Position numbers and translations under genes: made by a program
Shown here: piece by piece, positions 21,119-30,935 of the stretch
Position numbering within the stretch: the first letter of the stretch is position 1
Layout: every line of letters begins with the position of its first letter
IMG/VR virus record: IMGVR_UViG_3300035698_017758
Location: 1 to 41,122 of that record
Reading direction: 5' to 3' (one strand)
DNA from: a virus
Length of the DNA: 41,122 nt
Notes under the pieces: generated by a model
What the model was told of the DNA's origin: nothing
The model's input: the letters and a program-made list of their open reading frames with translations, nothing else
Databases searched by the model: none

Positions 21119-21482
21119 AATAATTAGCTTCTTCCATTCCCTTTCTACTTGTATCAAAAGTATCTGAGTCTAATAAATAATATCTTTGTTTTCCAGTTCT
21201 TTTTTGTTTAAACATTTTATTAAATTCTCTAAAAAATACAATCTTGTTTGTTTTATGGGGAGGCTGCATTCCTTCCCACTTTACTCTGTAATAGTAAAAT
21301 ATCATATAATTAGGGATAAGTTCTATCCCTGGTTTTATATGCATTTGATTTATGAATTTTTGAACACTAGGAACTTTTATATCTGAGATTTCCTCTTCTT
21401 TAGAAAGCTCTGATTTTTCTTTTTCCTTTTTTGCATTATTTGCAAGTTCAATTAATTCCTGTAAACTAGGTTCTTTAATCAT
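21078..21482 (-). CDS. Hypothetical protein downstream of exported ClpP-like gene
   Basis: A 134-residue protein with a charged N-terminal helix and a compact domain (FINQMHIKPGIELIPNYM, IFYYYRVKWEGM, IVFFREFNKMFKQKRTGKQR, YYLLDSD). Aromatic and basic residues dominate the second half. Its ATG overlaps the stop of the ClpP-like gene (ATGA), so they are co-translated. No family is recognised. Confidence 0.55.
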   Translation of the reverse strand: MIKEPSLQELIELANNAKKEKEKSELSKEEEISDIKVPSVQKFINQMHIKPGIELIPNYMIFYYYRVKWEGMQPPHKTNKIVFFREFNKMFKQKRTGKQRYYLLDSDTFDTSRKGMEEANYYEKTYQNKKVKKK

Positions 21483-22261
21483 AATGTAAAAGTTATATCT
21501 TGTTTTTCTTTTTTATAAAGATCAAGAATCCTAGACATTGGTATAGTTTTTGTTTTATTTTTAACAGAAATTGGATATCTGATTAACGGACAATTAGAAA
21601 ACTCTAGGTTTAAGTTTCCAAATGTTGTTCTCATTTGTTGTACTCTAGTACCTTTTAGGGAAGATCCACATGTAACATCCGCAACTTCATCAGCATGGCC
21701 TTTATCTACAGATTCTTGTCCTACTAACCAAAGTTCATCTCTAATTGAGTTTTTGTATTTACTTAGGGTTTTACCTACTCTTTTTGCTGCATTTTTATCT
21801 AGTAAATTTACAATCTTTTTTACATAGTTTAACCTAACTTCAACTTCACCTTCAATTTGTCCTGATAGTCCACCAATAGAAGCTCTGTGACTCATTAGTT
21901 CTCCAGAGTTGGTAATATATCTTGTGTTTAAACTTTGTACTACATGGTATCCCATACTTGCTGCAAATAGAGTTATAGTGTGTACTTCTCTGTCTAATGC
22001 TTTAATAAAGTCAATTAAAGAGTTGCCTGCAGTAACGCTACCACCTGGAGTGTTTAGCACTAAATACAAAGGTAGTCCTTTTTCTAAGTTTGAGTTTTTT
22101 TCTAGAATTTCTGACTGTATTTTAGAAATATAACTCATGCTAAATTTTTGATTAAAACTTATAGTATTACTTGCTTCTAGAATAATCTTAGTTCTAGATT
22201 TTGCAAATAAGGAAGTTGATGATAATATCAATAACATTAAAACTAATACATACTTTTTCAT
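21479..22261 (-). CDS. Exported ClpP-like serine peptidase
   Basis: A 260-residue protein with a Sec signal peptide (residues 1-20, basic KK, Leu-rich core, cut after LFA). The mature part is ClpP/crotonase fold: LYLVLNTPGGSVTAGN, then TLFAASMGYHVVQSL with nucleophile Ser102, LMSHRASIGGLSGQ with His125, and IRDEL with Asp175 followed by VDKGHADEVADV. The H-to-D gap (50) equals that of ClpP (about 49), so the triad looks intact. Its place would be the periplasm, without Clp ATPases, nearer to SppA or NfeD-type peptidases. An own promoter lies upstream (22294-22322). Confidence 0.8.
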   Translation of the reverse strand: MKKYVLVLMLLILSSTSLFAKSRTKIILEASNTISFNQKFSMSYISKIQSEILEKNSNLEKGLPLYLVLNTPGGSVTAGNSLIDFIKALDREVHTITLFAASMGYHVVQSLNTRYITNSGELMSHRASIGGLSGQIEGEVEVRLNYVKKIVNLLDKNAAKRVGKTLSKYKNSIRDELWLVGQESVDKGHADEVADVTCGSSLKGTRVQQMRTTFGNLNLEFSNCPLIRYPISVKNKTKTIPMSRILDLYKKEKQDITFTL

Positions 22262-24020: not shown

Positions 24021-24578
24021 TTAATACTCCGTTTCTATAATTTTATTAATGAATGAAATTGCTTTTAATAAATCTTCTTTTCCATTCTTATTTTTATACC
24101 TAGTTACATATTTAATCGCCGATCCCTGTAGGAAGCTCATATCATGAGAGATAATATAATCCCAACATTCAATACCTTGGGTATAATGTTTAGGATTATT
24201 AATAATCTCCATATCAATTTCAGACTCTTCTACTTCTACTTCTACTTCTACTTCAGCTTCTGGAACTCCAATGTGATCTAGAAAGCTTTCATCAATAGCA
24301 CTAAAAAACTCAGGAGATGGTTGATCTACAATATCGAGCCTTTTTCCTTTTTTCTTCTCTTTAATGTTCTTTATATGCTCATACTTAACTGTTTGTATAG
24401 TACTACCAAAGTCTACTAAATACAGATCATTCAAATCGTCATATTTAACTACAAGTCCCTCAAGGCCCATAGGTAGTCCGTATTTTTTTAGCTCAGGAAC
24501 CGAAACATAGACTTTATCTTCTTTAATCTTAAATTTCGATTTTTTCTTTCTTGTCTTTTTCTTCTTATTTTGTGTCAT
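24021..24578 (-). CDS. DUF3310 protein with N-terminal KOW-like segment
   Basis: A 185-residue protein. Residues about 126-183 match DUF3310 (SaV-like): NNPKHYTQGIECWDYI, then FLQGSAIKYVTRYKNKNG and EDLLKAISFINKII. This domain is widespread in phages next to nucleotide metabolism genes; it is proposed as a nucleotide kinase-like fold, with no firm function. The N-terminus is very basic and then has LEGLVVKYDDLNDLYLVDFG, a KOW/SH3-like barrel. A Glu/Val run joins them. It starts inside the end of the ClpP-like gene. Confidence 0.75.
   Translation of the reverse strand: MTQNKKKKTRKKKSKFKIKEDKVYVSVPELKKYGLPMGLEGLVVKYDDLNDLYLVDFGSTIQTVKYEHIKNIKEKKKGKRLDIVDQPSPEFFSAIDESFLDHIGVPEAEVEVEVEVEESEIDMEIINNPKHYTQGIECWDYIISHDMSFLQGSAIKYVTRYKNKNGKEDLLKAISFINKIIETEY
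24227..24262 (-). repeat. Hexanucleotide microsatellite
   Basis: CTTCTA is repeated four times perfectly, then CTTCAG and CTTCTG, encoding the alternating Val-Glu linker of the DUF3310 protein. Length changes would be in frame (six bases), so the linker can vary without loss of the gene. Confidence 0.8.
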
Positions 24579-25149
24579 AAAAAAACCGTTCTTCTATTTT
24601 GTCTGCTAAACCTAAATCTATACAATCCTGTGGATATAATATCGTATCATGCTCTAATATCTTTGTCAACTGACTTTTAGTGTATTTAGGTTGTTTTTCT
24701 CTAATCTTTTCCAGGTAGGTATCGTACATCCATTTACCTACTTTTCCACTATGCTTATCCCATCGAGCTTTAGCAGTAGGGTGCAGCTCTGCAGATCCGT
24801 CAGTACCTTTGTGTACCATCATATAAGAGTTAGGTGACATTAAACGCTCGTCACAAGCCTGTAGAAGCAAACTAGCACTACTATGTACTGAACCATATAC
24901 CAATGCTCTAACGTGGTTCCTACAGCCTCTCACAAGGTCAAAAATGGCCATTAATGTTTCTACTTCACCACCTTCTGAATTAATGAAAATATTGATGTTT
25001 CCTGTACTAGAATCTAGAGCATGTAGGTTTTTTAAGCATTTCTCGTAAAGCTCAATATTAAACTCACCAGTAACGTCAATGCTTCTGGTAGGAAGATATA
25101 TTCCATTATCATGAAAAGAACCTAAATGCTCTTGTAACTTTTTTGACAT
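24565..25149 (-). CDS. Cytoplasmic ClpP-like peptidase
   Basis: A 194-residue protein without signal peptide, about the length of ClpP. INIFINSEGGEVETLMAIFD matches the oxyanion strand, VYGSVHSSASLLLQACDERL gives nucleophile Ser90, YMMVHKG gives His113, and LEHDTILYPQDCIDLGLADKI gives Asp168. This is the ClpP fold with the full triad. Known phage ClpP-like genes often sit by capsid genes as prohead proteases; here it is in the replication block, apart from virion genes. It could work with a host Clp ATPase or alone. It overlaps the following gene by 14 bases. Confidence 0.8.
   Translation of the reverse strand: MSKKLQEHLGSFHDNGIYLPTRSIDVTGEFNIELYEKCLKNLHALDSSTGNINIFINSEGGEVETLMAIFDLVRGCRNHVRALVYGSVHSSASLLLQACDERLMSPNSYMMVHKGTDGSAELHPTAKARWDKHSGKVGKWMYDTYLEKIREKQPKYTKSQLTKILEHDTILYPQDCIDLGLADKIEERFFYDTK
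24641..24669 (-). promoter_or_regulatory. Possible internal sigma70 promoter in ClpP-like gene
   Basis: TTGACA, 17-base spacer, TACGAT with a TGA extension. It lies inside coding sequence and would drive DUF3310, MazG-like and HNH genes. Coding AT-rich DNA makes such matches by chance, so this is weak. Confidence 0.3.
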
Positions 25150-28283: not shown

Positions 28284-28487
28284 TTAGTCTAAAAGTATAT
28301 TATGTTCATTGTTTTTATAAAATTTATAAGATTTTTTGTTTATGTCATTATCAAAATGCAGTAAACAATATTCTTTATTTTGGTTACAATTATATTCATC
28401 ATGAATTTTGAAAATTTGTTTTTGTAAAGATCTATTATCGTATTTAGATAAGTTTTCTAGATTTAATAATTTATTTTTGTAACTCAT
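28284..28487 (-). CDS. Hypothetical small protein
   Basis: A 67-residue Asn/Lys/Tyr-rich protein (SYKNKLLNLENLSKYDNRSL, CNQNKEYCLLHFDND). It overlaps the polymerase C-terminal gene by four bases (ATGA), so it is co-translated with it. No family is recognised. Confidence 0.45.
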   Translation of the reverse strand: MSYKNKLLNLENLSKYDNRSLQKQIFKIHDEYNCNQNKEYCLLHFDNDINKKSYKFYKNNEHNILLD

Positions 28488-29227
28488 AATTTTAAGGCCT
28501 TGGCATGGTTCCCTTTATTATGATACTTAATAAATTGGTCTAAGTCAAGGACTTTCTTAAATATTTCTACAGTATTATAGCATCTTTTAACATAATGCCA
28601 CTCATCTTCACTATTTTCCCAATTCTCGACTAATTTAAGTATTTTATTATCTACCATCTTAGTAGTGCCGTCTTTATAATACTGAACTTCACCTTTAGAT
28701 ATCTTTGGTATTTGACCATCAATTGAATAAAACATAAACTTTTTGTCACCCTCTTGGTATTCTTCATCCTCTAGTGCGTCTAGTACTTTCTGCTCATTTA
28801 CTCGGCTAGGGTTTAGCACAGATTTTGTTATATTCTTTTTAACCGCCCATCTTCTTATATCAGTTATATTTAATGCTTCTTTTACATATAATTCAAATAT
28901 TTCAATTTGATTAGTCTCTTTGTTTAGTAAACTTTGTATAAGCTTATCAATCATTTCTTGTAATGCTGGTTCTTTTTTTGAATCAGTAATGGCGCTGCCT
29001 TTTTTAGATATCTTATCACCTTCTACTAGTACATAGTTTTTGGCTTTAAGTACTAAGAATTTATCAAAAATCCCATCATCTTCATATTCAATCATGTCAG
29101 GTAAAAGTGAATTTATTTCATATATTAAAGATTGTTGTTCTTCTTTAGTAAATATAGAGCCATCTGGTTTTTTAAATGAAACAGCATCTGTGTCACTATT
29201 AGTAATATAAAAATTATGATTATTCAT
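28484..29227 (-). CDS. DNA polymerase family B, C-terminal part (split gene)
   Basis: A 247-residue protein. FYITNSDTDAVSFKK holds palm motif C, with DTD at residues 12-14, and LKAKNYVL (about 60-67) is the K-x-Y motif that contacts the primer-template. The rest is thumb-like helical. It joins directly to the upstream gene, which ends shortly before motif C. The ATG is inside the end of that gene (8-base overlap) in the +1 frame. Both catalytic Asp sites are therefore on two chains, as would be required to meet for activity. Confidence 0.75.
   Translation of the reverse strand: MNNHNFYITNSDTDAVSFKKPDGSIFTKEEQQSLIYEINSLLPDMIEYEDDGIFDKFLVLKAKNYVLVEGDKISKKGSAITDSKKEPALQEMIDKLIQSLLNKETNQIEIFELYVKEALNITDIRRWAVKKNITKSVLNPSRVNEQKVLDALEDEEYQEGDKKFMFYSIDGQIPKISKGEVQYYKDGTTKMVDNKILKLVENWENSEDEWHYVKRCYNTVEIFKKVLDLDQFIKYHNKGNHAKALKL
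28520..28548 (-). promoter_or_regulatory. Possible internal sigma70 promoter
   Basis: TTGACT, 17-base spacer, TATCAT on the - strand, 10 of 12 bases in consensus. It is inside the polymerase C-terminal gene and would serve the 67-residue protein and the AAA+ ATPase. Confidence 0.35.
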
Positions 29228-30935
29228 CTATTATTCCTTCATATATAAAATCTTTTTCATCATTATACTCTTGCCACCAATATTTAATATTTTTACCTGA
29301 TGCCCATTTTATTGTTTTTTTAATAATTTGTCTACCTATTCCAGTAATTTTATCTGCAATAGAAAAATCATTAAAATTTAGTCCAGGAGTTCCACATAGA
29401 CCATAGAGGCTGTTAATTAGAATTTTTTGTGAAGCTTGCATATCATCGTAATATTTATCGTTTGTTTCTTTATATTTATCTTTATTATAAAATCTTTGTT
29501 CAGTAAAATAATTTGCCATTTCTAAATAATATTTTTTAGGATCTTTTTTATTTGAATAAAGTTTGTATGCCCTTATGATAGAAGGATACATAGATTTAAT
29601 ATCAATTTTAAAAACATTTTCATGCAGCCCTGGTACACCAAAAGATATACCCCCACTAACCTTACTAAGTTCTTCTGTTTTAGGAATACTATGATCTTGC
29701 TGTAAGTACCCTCTAACTAAGATTGCATTAAGCCAAGAGCCAGAAGCAGAACATATAATAGTTTGAAAAGATTTAGGAATACTTTGAGTCATATAAAAAA
29801 ATGAAGGAGCTTGTTTATCAAATAATGCCAAAGAATCATCTGCATCATGCATACCGTATTTAATAATTAACTCACGTTTTTTAAGATCTTTCCAATCTTC
29901 TCTAATTTTAGAAGCATCATAAAACTGCCTATCTTTTTTTATTAGACCTTCGTACTCAATGATTTCTTTTAGTTTCCAAGAAGGGTAGTTTCTTCCTATA
30001 TCATATTTTACTGAAGAGAACATAGTATCAAAAACAATTCTACCATGTATAAAACATTTTTTATATTTCCAAGATTGACTTCCATCAACCCTATAGTTTG
30101 ATTCATAGTCATTAAACATTATTTCACTACCATCTCTACCTAAGTGTAAAGATATGCCTTCATTTTGTGCAACATGATTCATAAAATCAAAATCATATCC
30201 AAAAATGTTATGACCTAATATAATATCTGGATCAATCTCTCTAACGTATTTACACCAATCTAATAACATTTTTCCCATAGATTTATAATGATCTTCTCTA
30301 AATTGTCTTCTCTCTATTTTACCATTTATTCTAGAAGTGTTTGTTATAAGATAAACTTTGGAGTTATTATCTCTTGCCAATCCTGAAGCTTCAATATCAA
30401 AAGATAATAAAGAAAGTTGATCAATTGTCATACCTTTAAATAAAGTAATTCCATAGTAAATCATTGCAGATTCTACTTCATCGTATACTCGGTATATATC
30501 GCATCTTTTTTTATTTATATAATAAAACTTATCATAGCTTTCTTTAGATTTAAATGTTGTAATAAATTTGTAATGTAAATCACCTTTTAGATTTTTAGAT
30601 CCTTTATAAACTTTCCTATTTGTTAAAACCCAATATACAAAAGGTCGTTCCTCAATAGTTCCGTCTTTAAAAAATAATATAACTTTTTGATCAAACATTT
30701 CTACAGCAACTACATTTTCAGTTTTATCCTTACCAAATATTAAATCATTTGAATATTTACTTTTAGATTTATTAAAATCATTTATATATTTTTGAAAAGG
30801 AGTGTCTAATTCAAATTCAAATTCTTTAGTTTTTATTTTATTGCCATCAATATTATATTCAATACTATCTTCTAGTATATAAGATTTCATCTCATTAAAT
30901 GAAACTTGATCTTTAATAAAATACTGCTCTACCAT
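29220..30935 (-). CDS. DNA polymerase family B, exonuclease and N-terminal palm/fingers (split gene)
   Basis: A 571-residue protein. Proofreading motifs: Exo I LLSFDIEASGLA (Asp180, Glu182), Exo II GHNIFGYDFD (242-250), Exo III YGMHDADDSLALF (Tyr360, Asp364). Polymerase motif A is DIKSMYPSI (445-453) and motif B is KILINSLYG (504-512). The chain stops at residue 571, just before motif C, which opens the following gene. Together the two chains give 818 residues, the usual size of phage family B enzymes. The gene starts directly after the previous stop. Confidence 0.85.
   Translation of the reverse strand: MVEQYFIKDQVSFNEMKSYILEDSIEYNIDGNKIKTKEFEFELDTPFQKYINDFNKSKSKYSNDLIFGKDKTENVVAVEMFDQKVILFFKDGTIEERPFVYWVLTNRKVYKGSKNLKGDLHYKFITTFKSKESYDKFYYINKKRCDIYRVYDEVESAMIYYGITLFKGMTIDQLSLLSFDIEASGLARDNNSKVYLITNTSRINGKIERRQFREDHYKSMGKMLLDWCKYVREIDPDIILGHNIFGYDFDFMNHVAQNEGISLHLGRDGSEIMFNDYESNYRVDGSQSWKYKKCFIHGRIVFDTMFSSVKYDIGRNYPSWKLKEIIEYEGLIKKDRQFYDASKIREDWKDLKKRELIIKYGMHDADDSLALFDKQAPSFFYMTQSIPKSFQTIICSASGSWLNAILVRGYLQQDHSIPKTEELSKVSGGISFGVPGLHENVFKIDIKSMYPSIIRAYKLYSNKKDPKKYYLEMANYFTEQRFYNKDKYKETNDKYYDDMQASQKILINSLYGLCGTPGLNFNDFSIADKITGIGRQIIKKTIKWASGKNIKYWWQEYNDEKDFIYEGIIDE

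Follow-up and report, generated by a model that had tools for sequence, protein, structure and literature searches.

Genes at the polymerase locus

The window, by which we mean the whole stretch of DNA analyzed here, is IMG/VR record IMGVR_UViG_3300035698_017758, 41,122 bases long with ~31% G+C and no direct terminal overlap. On its minus strand, two adjacent open-reading frames carry between them the exonuclease and palm domains and the motifs A, B, and C of a family B DNA polymerase, as identified by Pfam and alignments. The upstream frame, chain 1 (29220..30935, minus strand, 571 aa), contains the 3′–5′ exonuclease domain and palm motifs A and B, with Pfam matches to DNA_pol_B_exo1 (1.4e-12) and DNA_pol_B (5e-10). 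Alignment placed exonuclease motif I, DIE, at residues 180-182 (30390..30398, minus strand), palm motif A at D445 within DIKSMYPSI (29577..29603, minus strand), and motif B, KILINSLYG, at K504-G512 (29400..29426, minus strand); exo III reads YGMHD at residues 360-364, and the chain ends in IIDE directly before its stop. The downstream frame, chain 2 (28484..29227, minus strand, 247 aa), supplies motif C, the remaining palm, and the thumb, as judged from an alignment of 14 relatives and a profile match. Its N-terminus is MNNHNFYITNSDTDAVSF, with motif C, DTD, aligned at residues 12-14 (29186..29194, minus strand), and the thumb motif KNY, invariant in the 14 relatives, follows at residues 63-65 (29033..29041, minus strand). 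Chain 2 alone produced no Pfam match, and its family profile corresponded to residues 533-649 of archaeal PolB in solved structures. The original prediction had described a single family B polymerase divided between motifs B and C, with exonuclease motifs and motifs A and B upstream and motif C downstream; the frame coordinates and motifs agree with this description, and Pfam and the alignments confirmed the assignment of the two chains.

Third-position G+C was 14.3% at 29220-30935 and 21.8% at 28484-29227, a gap between the chains that could reflect chance or a separate history of the second part. Two protease genes also lie near each other on the minus strand (21479-22261 and 24565-25149), one resembling head maturation proteases and the other ClpP-like.

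The junction and the predicted fold

The two frames overlap by 8 nt, ATGAATAA (29220..29227, minus strand), comprising the start of chain 2 and the stop of chain 1, exactly the eight-base overlap first described. Immediately upstream of the chain 2 ATG are two stops in its own frame, TAA TAG (29228..29233, minus strand), and a Shine-Dalgarno-like AAGGA stands 7 nt upstream of the ATG (29235..29239, minus strand), so that chain 2 begins with start signals of its own, 11 residues upstream of motif C. The next gene (28284-28487) shares 4 nt with chain 2, indicating that short overlaps are ordinary gene borders in the window. A ribosome would end chain 1 here and start, or restart, at the overlapping ATG, aided by the AAGGA sequence. 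When the chain 1 stop is read with a +1 shift, TAAT being taken as one step, a joined chain of 816 residues results, and the frames do fuse without loss of residues, as had been predicted.

The joined chain, read in the same way, was modeled with AlphaFold2 together with 48 sequences of the clade described below. The model had a mean pLDDT of 92.7 and a pTM of 0.82, and as a model of a single joined chain it is silent on the assembly of the two chains. Its top PDB matches were the archaeal KOD and 9N polymerases (E about 4e-32), consistent with a PolB fold. The cut follows helices whose ends are near 553-561 and precedes the motif C strand at 576-581; it lies in the loop that would join the palm helix after motif B to that strand. 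From about residue 546, the C-terminal tail of chain 1 (29223..29300, minus strand) lies within an enlarged form of this loop, as judged from loop comparison and the model, and the confidence minimum at 561-570, among the least confident stretches of the model, coincides with the cut. The fold and the conserved motifs suggest that the two chains would fold together, with one active site built from the aspartate of motif A, on chain 1, and those of motif C, on chain 2.

Recurrence of the split among relatives

The nearest named phage relatives are the fused polymerases of Salinibacter phages, at ~28% identity. Single-protein scans with either chain returned no viral relatives, and chain 2 alone gave only noise against phage records; scans of IMG/VR based on alignments recovered a clade at ~35-54% identity. 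Contigs holding both polymerase parts were collected by profile search on open frames, giving 86 members including the window. Comparison with related phages had been proposed as a check on the split, and in this set 54 contigs are fused, 30 are split at the junction seen in the window, and 2 (L017 and L164, excluded since their frames break at another place) are broken upstream of motif B. With 30 of 86 contigs broken in this one loop and only 2 anywhere else, the split is not a matter of chance. After near-copies more than 95% alike were merged, 74 non-redundant members remained, of which 25 are split.

The main rival to a real split is a one-base sequencing or assembly error in a long-loop fused gene like L007 or L165. 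A single base would join the frames, the closest relatives of the window are fused, and frames do break at other places in 2 of the 86 contigs. Such breaks elsewhere are rare, however, and the target is only ~8 nt with no long single-base run; the error would also need a chance ATG at the start position used by other splits, along with a Shine-Dalgarno match, in a clade where about a third of the members are split here and many have genes in the gap. For these reasons, we consider a base error unlikely. No near-identical phage against which to check the bases of the window turned up in exact DNA scans, and near copies may be absent from the collections. A fused relative with identical flanks, which would have pointed to an error, was likewise not found, the nearest fused relatives being only ~50% identical. 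About a third of the surveyed relatives share this cut, and an endonuclease gene often occupies their gap; the break thus appears to be genuine and recurring, not an artifact. At the level of gene sequence, these comparisons establish the motif B–C loop as a recurrent fission site in this phage clade.

Motifs B, C, and KNY are retained in all 25 non-redundant splits, and the motif A aspartate is present in the variants inspected. The exo III motif did not match a simple pattern in four splits, and proofreading may therefore vary among them. A decaying pseudogene, with the genome copied by another polymerase, could be imagined given that the record may be a fragment and a second polymerase is thus possible, but catalytic motifs kept on both chains across the splits, intact open frames, and the persistence of splits in many lineages make this a poor account of the locus, one to which we give little weight.

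Anatomy of the loop

Loop length was measured from the NS of motif B through the end of the DTD of motif C. The compact fused form has exactly 51 residues in 34 of 34 non-redundant members. Since the outgroups nearly all have 50-53 residues (16 of 17 scored viral and 74 of 74 scored bacterial sequences), the ancestral gene was probably compact and fused. A further 14 fused members have long loops of 74-141 residues, and the window loop, taking both sides of the cut together, is ~27 residues longer than the compact form. The longest loop, that of L211 (141 residues NS to DTD), holds a 90-residue insert with no Pfam domain of its own.

The chain 2 start codon lies 8-12 residues upstream of motif C in 24 of 25 non-redundant splits, and 15 of the 25 have a Shine-Dalgarno match of at least 4 nt. 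No compact fused gene has an ATG at −8 to −12. An internal Met at exactly −11, the start used by many split genes, is present in 4 of the 14 long-loop fused genes (L160, L163, L169, and L211), which hints at re-fusion. A lysine at +8 after motif C is also shared by split and long-loop forms (33 of 39, vs 4 of 34 compact forms). On independent pairs, this signature, which was noticed before it was tested, stood at about 6 to 0 with a median p of 0.03; as a flanking signature it supports co-conversion without proving it. The tails of split chain 1 proteins are often short and acidic across distant lineages (for example, GGDDEEDDAA and ENEEVETED), as in L020, L158, L173, L214, L224, L229, L236, L239, L266, and L267.

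Contents of the gap

Among the 25 non-redundant splits, the gap between the halves holds an endonuclease gene in 9, another small ORF in 7, and nothing in 9, the window being one of these last. GIY-YIG genes are found in L218, L238, L242, and L257, all four with a Pfam GIY-YIG match, and HNH-type genes in L158, L173, L224, L246, and L266, assigned by PHROGs with weak or absent Pfam support. Eight of these endonuclease genes were measured, and each runs into both halves: 4-59 nt are shared with the end of chain 1 and 4-19 nt with the start of chain 2. Distant polymerase lineages carry related endonucleases, those of L158 and L224, for example, being 58% alike.

The spacing between the halves in relatives ranges from an overlap of 14 nt (−14) to about +1000 nt, and it bears directly on the +1 frameshift first suggested for the window. 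Programmed +1 frameshifting would make one polymerase from both chains, and at the chain 1 stop it costs no residues. Overlap lengths and frames vary among relatives, however, and many gaps are 120-1000 nt, which argues against such a mechanism; with a start and ribosome site belonging to chain 2, it is also unnecessary. We regard it as very improbable.

Rejoining of the chains by a split intein, or of the message by an intron, is hardly credible here. Polymerase genes divided with split inteins do exist (PMC6892783, PMC10189870), and the original prediction had named motif C as a hot spot for inteins and mobile introns. Against this, Pfam found no intein domain on either chain of the window, the ~27 residues above the compact form are far too few for an intein, and the start of chain 2 lies just 11 residues ahead of motif C. 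The overlapping frames leave no room for an intron, and Rfam at gathering score detected no intron or ribozyme in 13 gap-bearing relatives. What the relatives do have at this position are free-standing endonuclease genes. Between the halves of the window, which overlap by 8 nt, there is neither an endonuclease gene nor a remnant of one.

Evolutionary history of the split

A tree was built by quick searches without the junction columns, and on it the split or fused character changes 16 times, at least 11 of them on starred (well-supported) branches, where each change may be a gain or a loss. Removal of a wider tract left the count unchanged, and a single split clade was rejected (p-AU 8e-118, two-tree test, LG+G4).

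The clearest trace of sequence exchange comes from L236 and L238, a near-identical pair. Their DNA agrees at 93.5% identity as far as a point 367 nt short of the end of L236 chain 1; stretches of 835 and 1138 nt that cannot be aligned follow, and beyond them identity is 96-97%. The unalignable tract is centered on the split, where L238 holds a GIY-YIG gene and L236 a small ORF, and the nearest neighbors at the junction differ (L194 for L236, L009 for L238). Similar dips in identity were observed between L215 and its fused sisters L221 and L222 and between L158 and L214, and compact fused pairs have no dip around motif B. Average identity by region over split and fused pairs is weak evidence, the L236/L238 pair being far stronger. 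Tract replacement in L236/L238, L215, and L158 is the pattern that homing with co-conversion would be expected to leave. Such exchange of flanking sequence around the site was found in these relatives and not in the window.

Other rearrangements were also observed in the clade. L267 (L267:2994-8669) combines the motif B–C split with a LAGLIDADG intein in chain 1; its chain 2 is itself broken, and the last piece carries DUF4326 and uracil-DNA glycosylase domains. In L253 (L253:4986-7757), a fused polymerase has a C-terminal uracil-DNA glycosylase domain in a single open frame.

Origin of the split in the window

The reading that we favor, with good confidence, is that the locus encodes a predicted two-chain family B polymerase, the outcome of fission that has recurred in this clade at a loop frequented by homing endonucleases. 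Free-standing GIY-YIG or HNH endonuclease genes would insert into the loop, split the polymerase gene, and bring flanking sequence along; later loss or replacement of the endonuclease would leave a bare split, and some long-loop fused genes may have re-fused. Counted against this reading are the lack of an endonuclease gene or remnant in the window and the fused state of its nearest relatives, L007, L165, and L211. By path, the closest relative varies with the columns used: L007 or L211, both fused with long loops, or the split L158. From NS to DTD, the window measures 229 nt vs 240 for L007 and 243 for L165, so that this split could equally have come from a minor frame-breaking change, the loop being enlarged already, or from the loss of an endonuclease.

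A more far-reaching version is one that we put forward only tentatively. The site may be a mobile one, at which homing endonucleases repeatedly cut and replace a tract of ~170 codons in the palm core, so that phages would swap active-site cores and cycle among compact fused, split with endonuclease, bare split, and re-fused forms.

Relation to known split enzymes

Two-gene family B polymerases are already known. A split PolB of Methanobacteriales was reportedly described by Kelman et al. in 1999. The Methanobacteriales PolB is probably also cut before motif C. This archaeal enzyme resembles ours in being a family B polymerase made from two polypeptides (PMC7776575, PMC4104785), and its proposed origin is erratic intein excision (PMC4104785). 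In the T4-like Aeromonas phages 25 and 44RR, gene 43 is split as 43A/43B, with the seg43 endonuclease in phage 25, and the 43A and 43B products co-purify with polymerase activity (PMC2988022). Like the locus in the window, this is a phage enzyme of family B encoded by two neighboring genes, and one of these phages also has a free-standing endonuclease. The T4-like precedent nevertheless concerns a different cut. In Aeromonas phage 44RR2.8t, 43A stops after motif A, leaving motifs B and C to 43B, whereas the cut in the window is between B and C and recurs across one clade. The PolB of Pseudomonas phage MIJ3 is in two parts with an HNH endonuclease between them, and MIJ3 PolB and PolB16 OarG have split inteins able to rejoin the chains (PMC6892783, PMC10189870), unlike the window junction, which has no split intein. 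Free-standing endonucleases also split nrdA of phage Aeh1 (mobE) and the T4 topoisomerase gene (mobA) (PMC2988022); these are single cases in other essential enzymes, whereas here one site is split repeatedly. Text searches with partial coverage of the literature found no description of the recurrent B–C split in this clade.

Few cases of phage gene fission by homing endonucleases are known. In this clade, a single enzyme is cut at one catalytic loop in many parts of the tree, and genes at every stage coexist: compact and fused, with an endonuclease, split but bare, and fused with a long loop. How selfish genes split essential enzymes, why this loop tolerates it, and whether splits heal are thus testable here. 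The clade also offers many natural two-part polymerases, in which the active site would be built from two chains.
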